DNA from: Eubacteriales bacterium
GTDB lineage: Bacteria > Bacillota_A > Clostridia > Lachnospirales > Lachnospiraceae
Direction: 5' to 3'
Assembly (NCBI GenBank): GCA_030527765.1
Contig: JAUNAE010000077.1
Location: 1 to 12,117, forward strand
Length of the DNA stretch: 12,117 nucleotides
The notes under the pieces are model-generated. The model saw nothing but the letters and a program-made list of their open reading frames with translations. It did no database searches and was not told the DNA's origin. Position 1 is the first letter of the stretch. Every line of letters begins with the position of its first letter. A program made the position numbers and the translations under genes. Positions 2,025 to 11,874 of this stretch are shown piece by piece.

Positions 2025-2231
2025 ATGGAATATAACTACAATAAGTTATGGAAACTGCTGATAGACAAAAACTTGATGAAAAAAGATCTGATGGAAAAAA
2101 CGGGCATCACATCATCTACCATTGCCAAGATGGGAAAGAATAAAGCAGTGAGTATGGAGGTTCTCGGTAAAATATGTATTGCATTGGACTGTAATATAGG
2201 AGACATCGTTGATGTTGTAAAAGAAGATTAA
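2025..2231 (+). CDS. Small Xre/Cro-type HTH regulator of the defence operon
   Basis: This 68-residue protein is little more than a Cro/C1-type helix-turn-helix (about residues 5-65: YNKLWKLLIDKNLMKKDLME, TGITSSTIAKMGKNKAVSME, then LGKICIALDCNIGDIVDVV). The pattern, with a recognition helix around STIAKMGKN and an ending of the form LDCNIGDI, is typical of short YozG-like regulators. It is first in the operon and is preceded by AAGGAGG. The extended -10 promoter and tandem repeat lie within 100 bases upstream, so autoregulation of the whole operon is the likely role. Such regulators commonly lead defence operons and delay expression of restriction enzymes after entry into a new host; that purpose is inferred here. 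Confidence 0.9.
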   Translation: MEYNYNKLWKLLIDKNLMKKDLMEKTGITSSTIAKMGKNKAVSMEVLGKICIALDCNIGDIVDVVKED

Positions 2232-2270: not shown

Positions 2271-3788
2271 ATGGAGCATCTTTGTATTGGCTCATACGTG
2301 AGAATCATGACATCATGCACTATTCCTGCGGAGCGCAAGTTTGATCCCTTCTGCGAGAAGGTTATGTTATCGCTATGTCAGGCAGGTGCCACAGTCTTTT
2401 CATATACTTCTTCCGATGGATATGAGGTTACTTATTCATATACCAATTTCAACAAAATTCACTCTTCAAGTCAGAATCTACCAACCGAAGTTATGCAAAT
2501 GGCTTTAAAGAAGGATGCCTATGAAATTGAACGGTATTTCATACAGACCATCATTCCTGTAATGGAAGAAGCACGTAAGAAAAACGCTGTACTTGCATTA
2601 AAAAATGTTATTTTGAAAGATTCTACAATTGCTGACTCTACCCAGCTTGGTACAATTGGCAATCTCACAAAGAATGATCTTAAGAATAAAAATGAGTTTG
2701 TGCTTTCAGAATTCCTGACAGATGTATTCATTTATGCTGTCGCGAAAACAGATAACATGGTAGAAGCTGCATACACCAAATCTATCAAGAAAGATTTCTA
2801 TGCAGCATATAATCTAATGGCCGATACCATTAAGTTTTACGAAGTAACAAAACCGAGAACTACAGCAGCAATACCCCTTACTAGCAAAGGGAAATTCGAT
2901 AAGGTTTTTACGAACGTGTCAAGCGAGACGCTTTCCATATCCGCAAAACATGATTTCCAGATATTCTGTTTAAAGTTTGAGGATTTTGACTTTGACTACA
3001 ACGGTCTGTGGAAGCATCTTCGCAATAATATCGGCTATTATGTCTATTCCAGAGCTCAGATTGAGACTTATATGGAAGAAGATGAGATTTCCGCACTTGC
3101 TTACGATGCAATAGCATATATCAAAGAAGCCATCGCCGCCGGGAATTTTCCTATCGACGATGAGCTTGGTGAACTCTTGCTGTACATATTCCTTGAACAG
3201 GTTCTCGTTGCTCCAAAATTGATGAGCAAGGTAGAAATAGGAAATCACGGCGGTTTTATGACAAGTGAAAGCGCTGGTATCCATCTTCTTACAGCTAATG
3301 AAATTGTCCCCTTTAGTCAGGTTATTCTCGGCACATCGATGATAAATGGTGACTTACAAAAGGCTATAAATTCAGCCTTTGCGGATGCTCAGAAATTAAA
3401 GAATAGAAAGAAAGACGAGCGACGATTTGTTGAATCAAGCATATTTGCTGCTTCTTTCCCATCGGAAATTTACGATCAGCTTGAAGCTTTGATCTTACCT
3501 TCCGAAACGGGCGGTCAAAAACCTGCTACGGCATTTGGTATGTTCTTGGGATACAGCCTGAATGGGGTATCTGCAAACGGAAAAACGGTAAACGAATATC
3601 AGGACGCTGTGTTTGAGCAGGTTAGAAATGACATCAAAAACAATGTGTCATTCATCGAGTCGAAAATTACGCAGTATGGGCTTGACGGCTACTCTTTGTA
3701 TATTTATTTGCTTCCCTTCGCAGATGCGGATGAAGACAAAAAAGATATCATGGCCAAGCTGCTACAATCTGGAGGAGGTGGAGCATGA
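2271..3788 (+). CDS. HamA-like (DUF1837) protein with an extra N-terminal domain; catalytic motif apparently lost
   Basis: This is a 505-residue protein with a strong ribosome binding site (AAGGAGGT). Residues about 220-490 resemble the DUF1837/HamA nuclease of Hachiman: GELLLYIFLEQVLVAPKLMSK (about 300-320), then SESAGIHLL (332-340), VILGTSMINGDLQKAINSA (351-369) and YSLYIYLLPFADA near the end. HamA proteins, as I recall, have a DG-x-H and an LG-E-x-K at the last two motifs. Here the Asp position is Ala335 and the Glu/Lys positions are Thr355 and Met357, which suggests a dead or altered nuclease. HamA is usually about 300 residues. The first 215 or so (with YFIQTIIPVMEEARKKN and LSEFLTDVFIYAVAK) form an added helical domain that I cannot name. 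The stop overlaps the helicase start by 4 bases, and the Gly-rich tail is encoded by the helicase's ribosome binding site. The HamA family is likely from sequence plus partner; loss of activity is inference. Confidence 0.75.
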   Translation: MEHLCIGSYVRIMTSCTIPAERKFDPFCEKVMLSLCQAGATVFSYTSSDGYEVTYSYTNFNKIHSSSQNLPTEVMQMALKKDAYEIERYFIQTIIPVMEEARKKNAVLALKNVILKDSTIADSTQLGTIGNLTKNDLKNKNEFVLSEFLTDVFIYAVAKTDNMVEAAYTKSIKKDFYAAYNLMADTIKFYEVTKPRTTAAIPLTSKGKFDKVFTNVSSETLSISAKHDFQIFCLKFEDFDFDYNGLWKHLRNNIGYYVYSRAQIETYMEEDEISALAYDAIAYIKEAIAAGNFPIDDELGELLLYIFLEQVLVAPKLMSKVEIGNHGGFMTSESAGIHLLTANEIVPFSQVILGTSMINGDLQKAINSAFADAQKLKNRKKDERRFVESSIFAASFPSEIYDQLEALILPSETGGQKPATAFGMFLGYSLNGVSANGKTVNEYQDAVFEQVRNDIKNNVSFIESKITQYGLDGYSLYIYLLPFADADEDKKDIMAKLLQSGGGGA

Positions 3789-6418
3789 GCAATTTCAGAG
3801 ATGTCACCTTCGGGGAGCATTTGTTTTCGAAGATAGATGATAACGCTTATCTGCAAAAGTTGTATCACAATATCCTTATTAACTATTCCAAGCGTTTGTT
3901 CCGTTTGGATGAGATCGAAGAACAGCCTGTCAACATTGGGGATGCTTTGACTTTTGCAGATGTGCTTTCAAAATCCTACGGTACAAACCTATCGGATATT
4001 CATAAGATTCGTGCGCAGGAAATGGTCGCACTGCTTTATGATATGTATCCACAGGATGAGCAGATAAAGTATTATCTCGGATCTGTTCTCGCCAATACAG
4101 GGAATTTCTTAGGTATGAACAGGCTGACACCGGATTTTGAAAATGCCTCACTGCTTGAACGTGTTTATATGCACTTTAACATGGATTATCTGTCTGTACC
4201 GTCAGATGACGGGGCTCATTTTTTTCCTGCACAGAAAGAAATATACGATAGTCTGTCAAGACCTTGTTTCAGTTATTCAGCACCGACATCTATGGGAAAG
4301 TCCTTTATGATGCGTGCGTTTATCAAGCGGCAGATCATGGACGGTGCAAAGAAAAATTTTGCTTTGCTCATTCCGACAAAAGCTCTAATAAACGAGGTTA
4401 CAAGCGAATTAATAGACAGTCTCACTACTCTATTGAAAGAGACTGATTACCGCATTGTAACATCTTCTGGTTCGATGGCATTAGAAACAAAACATAACTA
4501 TATTTTCGTGCTGACGCCGGAGAGAATGCTGTACATTCTGATTAACGACCCTGACCTTATGATCGATTATTTATTTGTAGATGAAGCACATAAAATATCT
4601 TCTGGTGATAAGAGAAGTGCATTCTATTACAAGGTTATCAATAAGTTAGAAGATCGGCGCAGCAGTACGCATATTATATTTGCGTCGCCGAATATCCCAA
4701 ATCCGAGAGTATATCTCGATACGTTGTCAATAGGAGAATGGAGCATCGGTGAAGAATCTATTGTGGCGTGCAGATATGCCCCTGTTAGTCAGTTGAAATA
4801 TATCATTGACTTATGGGAACGTAATATCCGCATCTTTGATTCATACTCAAAGAAATTTATACTGCTGCATGAGATGAATCGGCAGTATTCATTGAGTGAG
4901 GTAATTGCACGAATTGGTGATAAGCGGCATAACATCGTATATTGCAAATCTAAGAATGATGCCATTCAGTTTGCAAGAGATTATGCGAACACACAGAACC
5001 CGATCGGCGATAAAAGGCTACAGGCGTTTGCAGAGGCAATCCGCAGCGATGTCCATAAGGAATACTATCTCGCTGAACTGGTAGAAAAAGGTGTGGCATA
5101 CCACATCGGTTATCTGCCAGCAAATATCAGGATGCAACTGGAGGATTATTATCGTGACGGTCTTATAAAGACCATGTTTTGTACAAGCACCTTGCTGGAA
5201 GGAGTCAATCTGCCTGCAGAAAACCTGTTCATTACAAGCTACAAGAAGGGATTGAGCAACTTTTCTGAGGTTGATTTTAAAAACCTGATAGGGCGTGTGG
5301 GACGTGCCAAATACAACCTATACGGAAATGTCGTTATTGTCCGTCTTCAGAGGCAGGAACGCGAAGAAGACTTGCAGAAATATGAGAATTTGCTGAAGGA
5401 CGATGTGCCTATGCAGAAACTGTCCATAGAAGCAGAATTAAACTCAAACCAGAAAAAGCTCATAGTAGATACGCTCCTTTCTGGAAACGTGGAAATCCAC
5501 AAATCTAAGAAACAGCAAAGTGAAGACAACTATGAGCTGATGAGAAAAACCATGTTAATTCTTGTCGGGGATATAGTTAACGGTAGAAACAGTCGCGTCA
5601 GGATGGAATTTGCACCGTATCTGACACCTGAGACTGAGTTAAAAATTCGGGAGCAATTTTCTGTACCAGAGAAAAAACCAGAGGATGATATTAATGTATC
5701 GTATGATCAGATACAGGGTATCGAAAAACTGATCCGCGACGGACTGACTTACCCGGAAATCAAAGATCCGAAGCGCGGTGCAGATTATTATGAGACACTG
5801 GCATTCCTCAATAAACTAGCTGTGGCGTTCAAGTGGCGTATCTACGAAAACCGAACGCTTGGTGCTGGAGAAGGACAAAATTATTCCAAACTGACATGGT
5901 ATACGGTTCTTTTGAACCAATGGATGCAAGGGCATGGACTCAGCTATATCATCGGACGAAGCATTGATGACTATGACGAGAAAAAGAGGGAATTGAAAGT
6001 TGACTACAATAAATGGGAAGTGTTTGATGGTTCGCAAAAACATATAAACATAATAATTGCCGATACATTGGAGGCGATCGAAGATGTACTTTTATTTCGG
6101 CTTTCAAACTACTTTCTTAAGTTTTCTGAGGAATATAAGCGTCAGCATCCTGATGAACAGTTCACGAATGACTGGTATGAGTTTGTAGAGTACGGAACAA
6201 CGAATCACCTACGAATCATTCTGCAACGGAGTGGCTTCAAACGAGATTCGACTGCATATATCCGAAGAAATGCTGATAAGTACGTACAAGGAACATCAAA
6301 CAATCCCAAGTTACTAAAGAAAGCATTACTGGAGTGCCCAAATGAGCTGGTGAGAAGAGATACTGAAGAAATTCAATACAATGTACCAGAATTATTCATA
6401 AATGAAGGAGAAGAATAA
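3785..6418 (+). CDS. HamB-like superfamily 2 DEAH helicase (Hachiman)
   Basis: This 877-residue ATP-dependent helicase has Walker A APTSMGKS (166-173, Lys172), motif Ia IPTKALINE (196-204), TPER (244-247), DEAH (266-269), a motif III variant FASPN (299-303), a second RecA-like domain starting near NIVYCKSK (383-390), motif V STLLEGVNLPA (468-478) and motif VI GRVGRA (503-508). The GVNLPA and GRVGRA signatures place it near Ski2-like helicases. With a DUF1837 partner directly upstream it fits HamB, the DNA-scanning motor of Hachiman. About 145 residues precede the helicase core, and a long C-terminal region (about 530-877) has no motif I recognise. Translation is coupled to the upstream gene through an ATGA overlap, with GGAGGAGGTGGAG just before the start. 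All core ATPase motifs are intact, so the motor should be active even if its partner is not. Confidence 0.85.
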   Translation: MSNFRDVTFGEHLFSKIDDNAYLQKLYHNILINYSKRLFRLDEIEEQPVNIGDALTFADVLSKSYGTNLSDIHKIRAQEMVALLYDMYPQDEQIKYYLGSVLANTGNFLGMNRLTPDFENASLLERVYMHFNMDYLSVPSDDGAHFFPAQKEIYDSLSRPCFSYSAPTSMGKSFMMRAFIKRQIMDGAKKNFALLIPTKALINEVTSELIDSLTTLLKETDYRIVTSSGSMALETKHNYIFVLTPERMLYILINDPDLMIDYLFVDEAHKISSGDKRSAFYYKVINKLEDRRSSTHIIFASPNIPNPRVYLDTLSIGEWSIGEESIVACRYAPVSQLKYIIDLWERNIRIFDSYSKKFILLHEMNRQYSLSEVIARIGDKRHNIVYCKSKNDAIQFARDYANTQNPIGDKRLQAFAEAIRSDVHKEYYLAELVEKGVAYHIGYLPANIRMQLEDYYRDGLIKTMFCTSTLLEGVNLPAENLFITSYKKGLSNFSEVDFKNLIGRVGRAKYNLYGNVVIVRLQRQEREEDLQKYENLLKDDVPMQKLSIEAELNSNQKKLIVDTLLSGNVEIHKSKKQQSEDNYELMRKTMLILVGDIVNGRNSRVRMEFAPYLTPETELKIREQFSVPEKKPEDDINVSYDQIQGIEKLIRDGLTYPEIKDPKRGADYYETLAFLNKLAVAFKWRIYENRTLGAGEGQNYSKLTWYTVLLNQWMQGHGLSYIIGRSIDDYDEKKRELKVDYNKWEVFDGSQKHINIIIADTLEAIEDVLLFRLSNYFLKFSEEYKRQHPDEQFTNDWYEFVEYGTTNHLRIILQRSGFKRDSTAYIRRNADKYVQGTSNNPKLLKKALLECPNELVRRDTEEIQYNVPELFINEGEE

Positions 6419-8254
6419 ATGGCGATTTTTTATGAAACCGTGCTAACGGTATTAAAATCAGATGAGAGGTTTGTAGCCGAGGATGGCACTTTCTTGCGCA
6501 ATGCAGTTTATGAGGCTGCAATAAAGATGGACGAGAGACTTATTCGTATCCTTCTTGCGAACGATGAAACACGCGCTCGTTTCTTCACGGAAGTCGATGG
6601 TGTCAAGGTGTTTGATAAGATGGGATTTGCATGGGTAATCAATAACAGGCAATTCCTGCCGGATAGTTACACCCGATTTAAGAATAAAATCGGCCTTGCC
6701 GAAGAAAATGGAGATCTTATTTCTACATCTGGCAAAGTTGAACTTGTTTTTCCTTATAAGGATTGCGTTCTGGAAGGCGGTCAGACAAAAGAAGATCAGA
6801 AAAGAAGTGAGATTTTTTATAATGAAACTCTTGCACCCGATGAGGTGGATAGACTTTTGTTTCCTAAAGTATTATCACATGCAACAAAGTTTTCATCTTC
6901 AGGTAAAGAAAAGACGACCTCGTTTAGTGATGAGGATAATCTAATTATCAAGGGAAACAATCTTCTTGCACTTGCTTCTTTGCTAAAAAGATATGAGGGA
7001 AGGATAAAGTGTATTTATATAGATCCACCCTATAACACTGGATCAGATGGATTTAAATACAATGATAATTTCAACCATTCGACGTGGCTTTTGTTTATGA
7101 AAAACAGGCTTCAACTTGCTCATAGACTTCTTAGAAATGATGGAAGTATTTTTGTACAGTGTGACGATTTTGAAGATTCGTATTTAAAAGTATTAATGGA
7201 TGAGATATTCGGACGTGACAACTATAGAAATAAAATCACCTGGAAACGCCGAGGAGGAAGTGCTAATCCCAAAAATCGATTAAACAATGTTACTGATTAT
7301 ATTCTTTGGTATTCAAAATCGGATGCAATGGATTATACTCCGATTTTCACACTTAATGATGAAAAAACTCAGCGATATATTAAGGAACGCTTTACTAATG
7401 TTGATGAGAACGGAAGACGTTTTATGAAATCGCCACTGCAAAGTCCAAACCCACGACCTAATCTCATGTATGAGTACAAGGGGTATAAAGTCCCTGCAAA
7501 AGGGTGGTCGATATCAAAAGAGATTATGGAACAGTGGGATAAAGAGGGGAAATTGTGTTTTCCTGAGGATAAATCCCAAAATATTAATCGTAAAATCTAC
7601 TTAGATGAATATCAAGGACAACCAGTGTCATCTCTATGGACAGATATATATGTTATTAATCCAATGTCAAAAGAGGCAATAGACTTTACCGGTCAAAAAC
7701 CAGAAGCGCTGATAAAACGCATACTTGATATGTGTACACACGAAGGTGATATAGTATTAGATTTCTTTATGGGTACTGGCACAACTGCAGCAACTGCAAT
7801 GAAGATGAAACGAAAATTTATATCAATAGAACAGATGGATTATGTGGAAGACATTACACTTAAACGCCTTCAAAACGTTATAAAAGGTGAAAAAAGTGGT
7901 ATCTCATCTGAAGTAAATTGGGAAGGCGGCGGTTCCTTTGTCTACTGCGAACTTGCCAAGCTTAACCAGACGATAGTTGAAGAAATTGAAACTTCTATTG
8001 ATGATACATCCCTTTTTGATATTTACGAAAGAATGATAAAAGCTGGATTTATCAGTTACAAGATCAATCCGGGTGATATTGATGCTGCCGTCGATAATTA
8101 CGATGCGCTTTCTCTTGATAACAAGAAACGATTTCTGATGGAGATTTTGGATAAGAATCTGTTGTATGTAAATTACTGTGATATAGATGATGAAGAGTTT
8201 GGCATTTCCGATGAGGATAAGACATTTACTCGAAGCTTTTACAGGGAGGGATAA
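6419..8254 (+). CDS. mod: Type III restriction-modification DNA methyltransferase (Mod), beta class
   Basis: This 611-residue adenine-N6 methyltransferase has DPPY in CIYIDPPYNTGSDGFKYNDNF (202-205), followed after a long variable stretch by the AdoMet-binding motif DFFMGTGTT (448-456). The order, with DPPY before FxGxG, defines the beta class used by type III systems. Residues about 260-425 should hold the target recognition domain. The N-terminal 170 residues (LLANDETRARFF, RFKNKIGL, LVFPYKDCVLEGGQT) are typical of Mod. It starts at the base after the helicase stop, with AAGGAG upstream. The Res gene follows after 3 bases, and the Mod tail is encoded by AGGGAGGG, the Res ribosome binding site. 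Mod methylates one strand of an asymmetric site and guides Res. The stretch from about 6840 to 7680 is more A/T-rich than its surroundings, suggesting exchange of recognition sequences. I see no simple repeats of the phase-variable kind. Confidence 0.95.
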   Translation: MAIFYETVLTVLKSDERFVAEDGTFLRNAVYEAAIKMDERLIRILLANDETRARFFTEVDGVKVFDKMGFAWVINNRQFLPDSYTRFKNKIGLAEENGDLISTSGKVELVFPYKDCVLEGGQTKEDQKRSEIFYNETLAPDEVDRLLFPKVLSHATKFSSSGKEKTTSFSDEDNLIIKGNNLLALASLLKRYEGRIKCIYIDPPYNTGSDGFKYNDNFNHSTWLLFMKNRLQLAHRLLRNDGSIFVQCDDFEDSYLKVLMDEIFGRDNYRNKITWKRRGGSANPKNRLNNVTDYILWYSKSDAMDYTPIFTLNDEKTQRYIKERFTNVDENGRRFMKSPLQSPNPRPNLMYEYKGYKVPAKGWSISKEIMEQWDKEGKLCFPEDKSQNINRKIYLDEYQGQPVSSLWTDIYVINPMSKEAIDFTGQKPEALIKRILDMCTHEGDIVLDFFMGTGTTAATAMKMKRKFISIEQMDYVEDITLKRLQNVIKGEKSGISSEVNWEGGGSFVYCELAKLNQTIVEEIETSIDDTSLFDIYERMIKAGFISYKINPGDIDAAVDNYDALSLDNKKRFLMEILDKNLLYVNYCDIDDEEFGISDEDKTFTRSFYREG

Positions 8255-8257
8255 TCG

Positions 8258-10858
8258 ATGGCATTCTTATATGAAAAAATAGATGCCTTGCGTGAATACG
8301 GCAGCAGTGCTGTTCTCCCCTCTTACATTCCGGAGAATCTGAATCCAAACTTCGAGCTGCGCCCTTACCAGAAACAGGCGTTTGAAAACTTTATTACACA
8401 TTTTGAGAATGGTAACCGACCAAAGCCTACGCAGGTGCTTTTTCACATGGCAACCGGCAGTGGAAAGACACTGATTATGGCAGGATTGATGCTGTATCTC
8501 TATAAACAGGGGTATCGGAATTTTCTGTTCTTCGTCAATCTATCGAACATTGTCGAAAAAACAAAAGATAACTTTTTGAATGCAGCCTCCTCTAAGTATC
8601 TTTTTGCAGACGAGATCGTGCTAGACGGAGAACGCATCCGCATCAATCAGGTGAATAATTTCCAGTATGTAGACCGAGATGCCATGAATATCTGCTTTGC
8701 TACTACACAAGGACTCCATATGGATATGTGGATGGCAAAGGAAAATGGGATGTCCTTCGATGACTTTGATGAACAGAAGGTCGTACTGATCTCCGATGAG
8801 GCACATCATTTAAATGTTGATACTAAGAAGAAAATGTCTGCTGACGAGGAATCAAGCTATCATTCCTGGGAACAGACCGTAAAGAATATTTTCAGCCGCA
8901 ATCCCGATAATATTTTGTTGGAGTTTACTGCTACCTGTGACCTTGCAAATCCATCAATTCGTGCAGTATATGAGAATAAGATCATATTTGATTATGCTTT
9001 AGCAAAATTTTACGGCGACAGGTATTCAAAGGATATCCTCACGCTTCGTTCTGACTTGACTGTCATGGAGCGTGCTTTGCAGGCACTTGTCCTTAGTCAA
9101 TATCGCTTAAAAGTGTTTCAATCCCATCGCCTTGGCGTTAAACCTGTTGTGCTCTATAAGGCTGCGAAGATTGCCGATAGCAAGGACTTCATGGCTCAGT
9201 TTATTGAAATGGTAAAAAAACTGACCGGCTCACAGCTTCGAAGCCTTTCTACTGCCGTCAATAATGAGGTTATGCACAAAGCATTTGCGTATTTTGCAAA
9301 CAATGGTATCTCTTTTGAAACGCTCGCCGCAGAACTCCGTGATGATTTTTCTGAGGAACATTGCGTTTCTGTAAACGATGATAAAGATGCCACGCAGAAG
9401 CAGCTTCTCTTAAATTCGCTTGAAGATGCGGATAATCCTTATCGTGCAATTTTTGAGGTAAAAAAGCTGGACGAGGGGTGGGATGTTCTGAACTTGTTTG
9501 ATATTGTACGGCTTTATGAAACAAGACAATCCAGCGGTAAAAAAATAGCTCCTGCAACTATAGCGGAAGCACAGTTGATTGGACGTGGGGCAAGATACTG
9601 CCCATTTCAGCTTGACGATGAGCAGCCTAAATATCAGAGAAAATATGACGAGGATATAACCAGCGAAATGCGTGTCTGCGAGACACTCTATTATCATTGC
9701 CAGAACGATCATCGGTATGTGACGGAACTTCGTAATGCTTTGCGTGAAATTGGTCTCGATACCGACAAAATCGTGCAGCGTGAATATGTCCTTAAGGATG
9801 ATTTTAAAGCGACAGATATATACCGGCAGGGGTTGATCTTTTTAAATGATAGAGAAGTAAAAGACCGGAAAGATGTGCGTGGTCTTACGCCGACCGTACG
9901 CGATAATATATACCGTTTCCAGGCTGCAACGGGAGCTTCCGGAGTTGATTCCGTTATGATTGAAACGTCACAAGGCACTGACCTTGTTTTTGATTTAAAA
10001 ACAGAGCATATGACGATTGGTGAAATTGCGGCAATCAATTATGCAGTTGTTAACAAGGCACTAATGAAGTACCCGATTTTCAAGTTTAACACGTTGCGCT
10101 CATATTTTCCGAATATAAAATCTACAAGGCAGTTTATTACAGATAGCGAATATCTTGGTGCTGTCCGTGTCGATATTCAGAGCAAAGATGTATATCCAAC
10201 AATGGATACGCTTTATGCGGCTGTTTTCTATGTGCTTGGAAAAATTGCAGACTCTATTTCGGGTATTGAGGAAACATACCGAGGAACGAAGAACTTCAGA
10301 GCGAGGAAGATCAGAGATGTCTTTCGTAATAAGACAGTCAACTATACCGATCCGCATGATGGTGGAATTGGTATATCTCAGAACGATCCATCTGTGAAGA
10401 GTGACTGGAAAATTGATCTCTCGACTGAGGACTGGTTTGTTTATACTGATAACTACGGAACATCGGAAGAAAAGGCATTTGTTGCTTACTTCCGTGGATA
10501 TGTTGCTCAGCTGCGAAAAAGATATAATCGTATTTTCCTTATCAGAAACGAGCGTGAATTCCACATCTACTCGTTTGATGACGGTGAACGTTTTGAGCCA
10601 GACTATGTTCTTTTCTTACAGCGCGATAAAACGGATGGGTTTGATCAACTCCAGATTTTTATTGAGCCGAAAGGTAGTCAGCTTCTCGAAAAGGATGCTT
10701 GGAAAGAAAGATTTTTGCTGCAGTTAAAGAAGGAAGCTATACCGACAACGACTTTTGTTGATGATAACGAGTATAAGATTTGGGGACTTCATTTCTTCAA
10801 CCGGGAAAATCGTATGAAGGAAATTGATGAAGAGTTTAAGGCGCTTGTCGTAGAGTAA
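8258..10858 (+). CDS. res: Type III restriction enzyme subunit (Res): helicase plus PD-ExK nuclease
   Basis: This is an 866-residue translocase-nuclease. Near the N-terminus, FELRPYQKQAFENF precedes Walker A ATGSGKT (65-71, Lys70), followed by DEAH (180-183) and TAT in LLEFTATCDL (224-226). The second helicase domain includes VKKLDEGWDVLNLFDIVRL and motif VI QLIGRGARYCPF. The C-terminal nuclease has FEPDY (779-783, Asp782) and IFIEPKG (800-806, Glu803 and Lys805), the PD...E-x-K site expected for Res. Length and domain order match complete Res subunits and there is no frameshift, so the enzyme should be functional. It follows Mod by 3 bases and would form the Mod-Res complex that moves along DNA and cuts when two unmodified sites are met. 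A 154-codon frame on the opposite strand near 10100-10564 is a shadow of this gene. Confidence 0.95.
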   Translation: MAFLYEKIDALREYGSSAVLPSYIPENLNPNFELRPYQKQAFENFITHFENGNRPKPTQVLFHMATGSGKTLIMAGLMLYLYKQGYRNFLFFVNLSNIVEKTKDNFLNAASSKYLFADEIVLDGERIRINQVNNFQYVDRDAMNICFATTQGLHMDMWMAKENGMSFDDFDEQKVVLISDEAHHLNVDTKKKMSADEESSYHSWEQTVKNIFSRNPDNILLEFTATCDLANPSIRAVYENKIIFDYALAKFYGDRYSKDILTLRSDLTVMERALQALVLSQYRLKVFQSHRLGVKPVVLYKAAKIADSKDFMAQFIEMVKKLTGSQLRSLSTAVNNEVMHKAFAYFANNGISFETLAAELRDDFSEEHCVSVNDDKDATQKQLLLNSLEDADNPYRAIFEVKKLDEGWDVLNLFDIVRLYETRQSSGKKIAPATIAEAQLIGRGARYCPFQLDDEQPKYQRKYDEDITSEMRVCETLYYHCQNDHRYVTELRNALREIGLDTDKIVQREYVLKDDFKATDIYRQGLIFLNDREVKDRKDVRGLTPTVRDNIYRFQAATGASGVDSVMIETSQGTDLVFDLKTEHMTIGEIAAINYAVVNKALMKYPIFKFNTLRSYFPNIKSTRQFITDSEYLGAVRVDIQSKDVYPTMDTLYAAVFYVLGKIADSISGIEETYRGTKNFRARKIRDVFRNKTVNYTDPHDGGIGISQNDPSVKSDWKIDLSTEDWFVYTDNYGTSEEKAFVAYFRGYVAQLRKRYNRIFLIRNEREFHIYSFDDGERFEPDYVLFLQRDKTDGFDQLQIFIEPKGSQLLEKDAWKERFLLQLKKEAIPTTTFVDDNEYKIWGLHFFNRENRMKEIDEEFKALVVE

Positions 10859-10875: not shown

Positions 10876-11874
10876 ATGCTTAACGAAGAAAAACGAATAT
10901 GGGGTATTCATACCAAGGACGATAATCTATTCTTGCACCAGAATGTTATCGCAATAGGATGGCGAGATATGGGCGATCTGAGCCAGCTCCAGGCAGATCG
11001 CGATATCTTCAAAGAACATTATCAGAAAGTATATCCGGATGCTAAGAAGGGTAGTATTGCGAATGGCGCCGGTATGTTGTATCGATTTGCATATGAGGTG
11101 CAGATTGGGGATTATGTTGTATTTCCATCCAAGATTGACCGGCAGATCAATATCGGTATCGTTGAAGGCGACTATGAGTATCACCCGGAAGCCGCTGAGT
11201 ATGTGCAGCAGCATAAGGTGAAGTGGCTGAAGCATCTGCCACGAACATCCTTCTCTCAGGGGGCGTTATACGAAGTCGGTTCTGCGATGTCCTTCTTCAC
11301 TATAAAGAACTACGCGGACGAGTATCTCGCTGCATTAGACAAAGGATTTAAAAAAAACGTGATGACTACAGATTCTGAAGAGGATGAGAGTGTTGGAGCT
11401 ACAGCGGAAGAAATAGTTGAAGCAACAAGAGATTTCATCCTGAAGGAATTAAGCAAGAATCTGAAGGGCTATGATCTGGAAGAATTCGTAGCTGATCTTC
11501 TGAGAGCTATGGGATATCGCACTACGGTATCTCCGCATGGCGGAGACAGTGGAATTGACATCACTGCCTATAAAGACGAATTGCCACCTCGAATTCTTGT
11601 GCAGGTGAAGAGTCAGGACAGTGATATTAAGGAAACAACAATCCAGTCGCTGAAAGGTGCAATGCGAGAAGGTGACTACGGCCTGTTTGTGACGCTGTCG
11701 AATTATACGAAGAACGCACAAAAATATCTTGATAGTACACCGATTATTCGCGGCATCAATGGAACGGAGCTTGTAGATTTGATTCTGAAGTACTACCACG
11801 ATCTAAGCGAGAAGTACAGGAAGATGATCCCATTGAAGATGGTGTATATTCCGGTTGCGAAGGATGAAGAGTAG
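10876..11874 (+). CDS. Type IV Mrr-family restriction endonuclease with an EVE/PUA-like N-terminal domain
   Basis: This is a 332-residue protein. Residues 7-150 (RIWGIHTKDDNLFLHQNVIA, then IGDYVVFPSK and IGIVEGDYEY) resemble the EVE/PUA-type reader domains that bind modified bases and are often fused to nucleases. An acidic linker (164-180) leads to an Mrr catalytic domain with YDLEEFVADLLRAMGY (Glu203), GGDSGIDI (Asp228) and LVQVKSQ (Gln243, Lys245), the E...D...Q-x-K site of Mrr-type enzymes. All catalytic residues appear intact. It would cut DNA bearing foreign modified bases. It is the last gene of the operon, 17 bases after Res, with TAAGGAGGG at the Res stop. Its coexistence with a methyltransferase implies that it ignores the methylation made by Mod. 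The reader-domain assignment is less certain than the nuclease. Confidence 0.88.
   Translation: MLNEEKRIWGIHTKDDNLFLHQNVIAIGWRDMGDLSQLQADRDIFKEHYQKVYPDAKKGSIANGAGMLYRFAYEVQIGDYVVFPSKIDRQINIGIVEGDYEYHPEAAEYVQQHKVKWLKHLPRTSFSQGALYEVGSAMSFFTIKNYADEYLAALDKGFKKNVMTTDSEEDESVGATAEEIVEATRDFILKELSKNLKGYDLEEFVADLLRAMGYRTTVSPHGGDSGIDITAYKDELPPRILVQVKSQDSDIKETTIQSLKGAMREGDYGLFVTLSNYTKNAQKYLDSTPIIRGINGTELVDLILKYYHDLSEKYRKMIPLKMVYIPVAKDEE

Follow-up and report, generated by a model that had tools for sequence, protein, structure and literature searches.

A HamA domain with replaced catalytic residues in a restriction–modification operon may report broken DNA rather than break it

In canonical Hachiman, exemplified by the HamAB pair of E. 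coli ECOR31 (8vx9, 8vxy), the catalytic motif of HamA is D-GEXK, and the accessible parts of two reports state that the E138A,K140A change abolishes defence (PMC12799240, PMC12278908); the adjacent Ski2-like helicase, HamB, responds to DNA ends and damage (accessible text of PMC12278908). Dead HamA domains as such are already in print. AbpA carries one behind another nuclease, and the accessible text of the same report calls it enigmatic why AbpAB keeps it (PMC12278908). In HamMAB, a protease carries a dead HamA domain that seems to make it oligomerise, and the available sections of that source place the protease on HamA, Avs1a and LmuA and devote supplementary figures S6 and S7 to other HamA fusions (PMC12799240). 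LmuA belongs to the Lamassu/ABC-3C systems, in which a variable N-terminal effector precedes a C-terminal domain (CTD); the accessible part of a review describes the former as the likely effector and the latter as possibly docking (PMC10586767).

The window analysed here is a stretch of 12,117 nucleotides from a Lachnospiraceae bacterium, and its plus strand carries an operon that combines Hachiman-like and restriction–modification (RM) genes. The first gene (2025..2231) encodes a 68-aa Cro/C1-type HTH protein (HTH_26, E 3.6e-20), an orthologue of which, 91–97% identical, lies upstream of dead HamA in seven related loci (L001–L007). The HamA gene (2271..3788; PADLOC PDLC00164 over residues 1–501, E 7.5e-200; PF08878) encodes a helical N-terminal extension of residues 1–195 (2271..2855), called the N-domain below, and a HamA (DUF1837) domain of residues 202–501 (2874..3773). 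Its stop is overlapped by the start of hamB (3785..6418), which encodes a Ski2/Hel308-like helicase (PADLOC HamB PDLC00190, E 0) with Walker A GKS (in MGKS) at 170, DEAH at 266 and GRVGR at 503. Then come a type III DNA methyltransferase, Mod (6419..8254; N6_N4_Mtase, E 9.5e-53; TypeIII_RM_meth, E 1.6e-24), with DPPY at 202, and its partner Res (8258..10858; ResIII, E 1.6e-33), with a helicase and an intact PD..ExK nuclease motif (782, 803, 805), so that the type III RM features are all present. An Mrr-type nuclease ends the operon (10876..11874; Mrr_cat, E 4.4e-25; PADLOC candidate PDC-S02, E 6.1e-140). The slot 3′ of Res holds a cluster-c11 protein in 8 of the 9 relatives that reach past Res (the one member scanned matched DUF4357 and PADLOC PDC-S14), and GmrSD nucleases come after several type I versions of dead-HamA loci. 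Upstream, on the minus strand, lies a DUF2800 cis-regulatory RNA (817–976; Rfam RF02960, 121.5 bits), beside an ORF (247–861) with weak sigma-factor matches.

The HamA domain keeps the fold of the family. PF08878 matched residues 246–483 (E 2.6e-29, 103.2 bits, cut-off 25), and the predicted model fits HamA structures over residues 202–501. A preliminary description of this DNA had proposed an intact reading frame, preserved fold signatures and an intact helicase partner, and each was borne out: the ORF runs uninterrupted from 2271 to 3788 (505 aa), it contains GELLLYIFLEQ, APKLMSK, SAGIHLL and ILGTSMI, and the HamB motifs are complete. Its principal claim, replacement of the catalytic residues, also stands. 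When 29 family members, the window included, were aligned profile to profile with 12 intact HamAs (hhalign, E 6.8e-53), SAGIHLL paired with SDGVHLL and ILGTSMI with IFGESKL. In place of the D, G-E and K that are invariant across the 12 intact HamAs, the window protein has Ala335 for the catalytic Asp (codon 3273..3275, plus strand), Thr355 for the Glu of GExK (3333..3335, plus) and Met357 for its Lys (3339..3341, plus). With the D-GExK nuclease residues of the family absent, the domain is, judging by its sequence, almost certainly catalytically dead. The three replacements had been taken as independent, and here the alignment disagrees: Glu and Lys are absent from 29 of 29 aligned sequences and Asp persists in the more distant ones, so the loss was inherited and stepwise.

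Among 194 aligned proteins, Glu occupies the catalytic column in only seven (L058, L064 and L066–L070), all short HamAs with the full D-E-K, and Lys alone is kept in four further proteins (P0106, L012, L051, L065). From a search that found 131 homologues, the analysis drew on the 120 listed. As a control, PF08878 was run against genomes of Clostridia (391), Bacilli (398), Gammaproteobacteria (369) and Actinobacteria (394) and scored above the cut-off in 48 of them. Four centre genomes of the class search (two dead, two intact, chosen by hand) were left out, and 44 HamAs were fetched. Those with letters at the motif (n = 43) kept Glu in 42, Lys in 43 and Asp in 42 cases. With nearly all control HamAs keeping these residues, their loss is the mark of one clade, and all 43 scored proteins lie outside it. 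A pattern scan of one genome per species, across 84,980 species, returned 73 loci in total, seven of them intact. The dead clade is uncommon and is spread over Bacillota and Actinomycetota. On a quick tree built without the three catalytic columns, the dead proteins need one change, and their 39-row clade has 97% SH-aLRT. Two Lactobacillaceae HamAs with an N-domain, L051 and L065, have lost Glu, keep Lys and lack an RM operon (in L051 a C5-methylase-like gene lies on the opposite strand); they fall just outside the dead clade in the quick tree and inside it, beside the window's group, in the dead-HamA tree, the latter placement carrying a long-branch warning. No member of the dead set has the Glu; Asp disappeared at a later stage, on the branch of the window and on certain others.

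The protein is not decaying. Over the HamA domain, dN/dS was 0.041/0.807 against L001, 0.049/0.679 against L003 and 0.061/0.929 against L004 (the comparison with L006 was saturated), low values that point to purifying selection, and HamB has kept its motifs in 64 or 65 of 65 proteins, a set that also covers intact-HamA loci (a fragment, L136, was omitted from the motif counts and L166 from the neighbourhood counts). The earlier proposal of selection for a non-nuclease role is thus well supported by the kept fold, the intact HamB, a dN/dS of about 0.05–0.08 and the clade-wide loss. Its choice of ‘scaffold or sensor’ was a guess made without the anatomy, although sensing or docking fits the precedents of AbpA and of the protease–HamA fusion. 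What it overlooked was the N-domain, a likely new effector or adaptor, the conserved RM partner and the dead HamAs already published.

The N-domain was modelled with confidence as a helical structure (pLDDT 87.9, pTM 0.87) that had no match among PDB or viral-library structures; its sequence gave no convincing PDB match (best E 0.33) and no Pfam match. An XRE-like HTH within it, suspected from a ‘G....P’ pattern, was unsupported by hhalign against the operon's own HTH family. Queries with a single HamA returned only HamA-type proteins and fragments; a domain-only alignment and a genome search found the other architectures. In the 391 Clostridia genomes, the N-domain profile matched five proteins: a window-type HamA (from the centre genome), two ending in CTD11, one ending in CTD6 and one STAND-like NTPase, whose NTPase matches fall below the Pfam cut-offs. 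The domain thus sits on the ABC-3C CTD11 in L209 and L210 and on CTD6/LmuA (PADLOC LmuA) in L212. STAND-like NTPases with an N-domain-like N-terminus occur in L006 (4561–6858), L007, L063 and L211, and in the first three the gene shares its locus with the dead-HamA RM operon. The N-domain thus fills the effector position on three sensor types, much as the published protease does on HamA, Avs1a and LmuA; it is likely a new effector or adaptor, and it may be an adaptor only.

Set against the described systems, the locus shares parts with each. With canonical Hachiman it has in common the HamA fold and an adjacent Ski2-like HamB with intact motifs, and it differs in its replaced D-GExK, its 195-aa N-domain and its RM operon. 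AbpAB, a Cap4-like nuclease on a dead HamA, likewise joins an N-terminal extension to a dead HamA domain and a helicase, whereas the extension in the window is helical, found no nuclease match and has RM genes alongside; of the family profile, only the part from position 189 onwards matched the AbpA chain (9wh1_A). HamMAB, with its protease–dead HamA and the MBL nuclease HamM, shares the lost D-GEXK and a fused N-terminal domain, and its protease, like the N-domain, also occurs on LmuA. The window has a different N-domain and an RM partner, however: the 505-aa protein gave no protease match, the remaining five genes of the operon match HTH, helicase, Mod, Res and Mrr, and no HamM-like nuclease is among the matched genes. 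In Lamassu/ABC-3C, relatives of the N-domain precede CTD11 or CTD6 and an SMC-like ATPase adjoins. There the sensor is SMC-like instead of HamB; in the window, a scan of the six genes gave no match to a CTD or SMC protein, both of which are found in L213–L215. Unlike plain type III RM, finally, the Mod–Res pair, with intact motifs in both genes, is preceded by HTH, dead HamA and HamB.

Of the 50 dead loci whose flanks were long enough, 41 have RM genes in one co-directional run with HamA (no gap above 200 bases); for intact loci the count is 4 of 40. Thinning at 80% identity gives 26/32 and 4/38, and taking the nearest two genes on either side gives 45/50 and 3/40, all obtained with detection models that were built from the gene clusters of the first 73 loci and the window and that favour the dead set. 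A Pfam scan of 150 of the 151 neighbour proteins of the 40 intact loci served as a control: it matched 152 families, among whose 25 most frequent were ResIII (4), C5 methylase (2) and Eco47II (1), and HsdM, HsdS and HsdR were outside these 25, which leaves at most one member each. The RM partner is of type I (HsdM/HsdS/HsdR), type II (C5 or D12 methylase with an LlaJI- or SacI-like endonuclease) or type III (Mod/Res). Parsimony on the dead-HamA tree calls for six or more changes of type across the 40 typed rows (type I, 23; type II, 6; type III, 11); we assigned the types according to hits to the models and to Pfam, and the five dead loci that lack RM were omitted. Its nuclease motifs are kept: that of Res in 10 of 10 aligned proteins, the window's included, and that of HsdR in all 25 with letters at the motif, five fragments having been set aside.

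The association has exceptions. Our models found no RM gene among the nearest neighbours of 5 of the 50 dead loci (L021, L025, L062, L065 and L072), though L072 has other ResIII/McrB-like genes. In a viral collection, RM genes were in the strict run at only 15 of 25 dead loci, and at 18 of 25 once L173, L180 and L189 (gaps of 212–270 bases) are added; this set is not wholly independent of the genome loci, since L206 is similar to L063 and the query taken from L213 has an identical counterpart in L218. Two intact HamAs near the dead clade, L159 and L066, are also close to RM genes, so RM linkage alone needs no dead HamA. In L066 (1876–8974), a D12 methylase, an AlwI-type endonuclease, a RecQ-like helicase and a DprA-like gene precede the intact HamA, an order hinting that RM linkage may precede catalytic loss. 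Because the loss is essentially one evolutionary event, the correlation of dead HamA with RM does not represent many independent cases, and Fisher values overstate independence. With this in view, we still consider it very probable that the dead HamA–HamB pair is functionally coupled to RM.

Two further arrangements bear on this coupling. In L213 and L214 the gene order is HTH, N-domain–CTD11, an SMC-like DUF2326 protein, Mod and Res, and the HTH proteins are 69% and 63% identical to the window's. Mod and Res there are the same kinds of protein as in the window without being near relatives: Mod matched at 28–43% identity over 98–145 residues (tblastn), the window Res gave no tblastn match in these loci at E 1e-3, and their Res was recognised by a two-sequence model from L036 and L039. 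The viral collection holds 17 loci with full or near-full relatives of N-domain–CTD11 (67–100% identity): HTH precedes in all 17, 12 reach the SMC gene, and Mod and Res follow it in all 10 that are long enough. These ABC-3C loci have the window's gene order with HamA–HamB replaced by another ATPase, and the N-domain is reused on another sensor within that order. In L213 the ABC-3C version has a phage-type replication module (DUF2800, ssDNA-binding protein, DNA polymerase A) upstream of it; given the DUF2800 RNA in the window, the two versions may share one type of hotspot. In L215 (4222–7471), the ABC-3C middle component MC2 and an SMC-like ATPase adjoin the LmuA-type N-domain protein, and an HsdR gene stands about 1 kb off on the opposite strand.

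The second arrangement concerns dead HamAs that lack the N-domain. Upstream of these is a gene, c5; it encodes an Ig-like protein that is similar to the N-domain in its N-terminal part. The match is remote (9% identity; hhalign probability 57.7 against HamA N-domains and 74.6, E 2.6e-5, against a broader set) and below the usual 90%, the best of 33 control families reaching 5.6. Where at least 7.8 kb of upstream sequence was at hand for short and N-fused loci (7 N-fused, 13 short and 2 truncated loci left out), c5 was present in 20/20 short dead loci and 0/23 N-fused ones, and it was found in 0/49 intact loci. Its place is four to eight genes ahead of HamA, and 16 of the 20 loci have both within one strict gene run. 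The Ig-like domain (two members scanned) matches PF16158 (‘Ig-like domain from next to BRCA1 gene’), which is an uncommon component for an RM operon of bacteria; L032 (2938–3789) is an example, with 19 other loci.

The precedent of canonical HamB and the gene anatomy make the following the simplest account. The HamA domain would be a dead docking domain under HamB control, and HamB with dead HamA would form a sensor of DNA ends or DNA damage built into the RM operon. The RM enzyme (here Mod–Res) would cut unmodified phage DNA, HamB would load on the cut DNA, dead HamA would relay the signal by conformational change or oligomerisation, and the N-domain (1–195) would act as, or recruit, a new effector. 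Sequence and structural prediction show the groundwork, namely the replaced residues, the kept fold, the intact HamB and RM motifs, the linkage of the clade to RM and the reuse of the N-domain. From it we infer which way the signal runs, that DNA ends set off the response in this clade, and that the N-domain is active as an effector; the first half leans on precedent and conserved linkage, and the last step on where the domain is placed. For the whole chain, from RM cut through HamB and dead HamA to the N-domain, we regard the case for and against as evenly balanced. More tentatively, a wider ‘sense-the-cut’ scheme can be put forward, in which operons for RM of types I, II and III would include their own sensor of DNA ends with the shared N-domain as output, dead HamA–HamB and the unrelated ABC-3C SMC-like ATPase would replace one another in the slot between HTH and type III Mod–Res, and the cut would trigger a second effector.

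Other readings exist, and they and the main one are not mutually exclusive. Type I and III RM enzymes carry their own motors, which counts against the most durable of them, namely that the RM nuclease is the effector, HamB and dead HamA are an accessory motor aiding the RM enzyme in the destruction of DNA, and the N-domain, fused or in c5, is only an adaptor docking to RM. Intact RM nuclease motifs and the company that the N-domain keeps with RM on two unrelated sensors speak for it, as does the small, mostly helical and non-enzymatic nature of EAD-type adaptors (accessible text of PMC7159879); given that the N-domain also caps STAND-like NTPases and that a few dead HamAs have no RM neighbour, we judge it rather unlikely. 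Quite unlikely is a guard arrangement, in which the RM enzyme silences the HamAB/N-domain unit and phage inhibition of RM releases it. Here the comparison is PrrC/EcoprrI, likewise an extra defence gene linked to an RM system, where the linked type I enzyme silences PrrC and a phage anti-restriction factor activates it (available part of PMC2610378). Linkage to RM of types I, II and III suits this; the window's effector is unrelated, however, and HamB, by precedent a DNA sensor, as well as the swapped-in SMC-like DUF2326 partner, suggest that DNA and not RM integrity is the signal. RM operons gain from damage-linked control of restriction, and the sensor might accordingly detect host DNA damage and damp the RM nuclease against self-cutting. 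We find this very unlikely: although canonical HamB does sense DNA damage (accessible text of PMC12278908), the N-domain in the ABC-3C effector slot would be left unexplained.

Plain clustering in defence islands, with RM nearby and no functional link, could account for the 4 of 40 intact HamAs near RM genes under the strict rule, but it is highly improbable in view of the 41 of 50 dead loci, the recurring orders of tightly spaced co-directional genes, a link that stays while the RM type is replaced at least six times and the complementarity of c5 and the fused N-domain. That HamA still cuts DNA with relocated catalytic residues is scarcely credible: Glu301 of LGELLLY is kept and aligns to an invariant Glu of intact HamAs, but the D, E and K columns are all replaced in the window, the Lys column at residue 320, invariant in the 12 intact HamAs, is variable among the 29 family members, and no conserved replacement acid or Lys was seen beside the motif in the family alignment.

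The RM-operon context and the shared helper domain suggest that dead HamA reports broken DNA rather than breaking it. For the RM-linked clade, the N-domain and the sensor swap, we found no description in the full-text literature that could be searched, and they may have been mentioned before. The N-domain, apparently undescribed and common to Hachiman, Lamassu/ABC-3C and STAND-like proteins, is a candidate new effector or adaptor to characterise. As a natural set that ties dead HamA to RM and to one exchangeable N-domain, the clade makes the purpose of dead HamA a testable question, which now becomes whether RM cleavage itself is the trigger of the sensor. In that case restriction, commonly regarded as a cut that stands by itself, would double as the alarm that rouses a second layer of defence. 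The response would then have two steps, restriction first and, set off by the break in the phage DNA, another effector after it.
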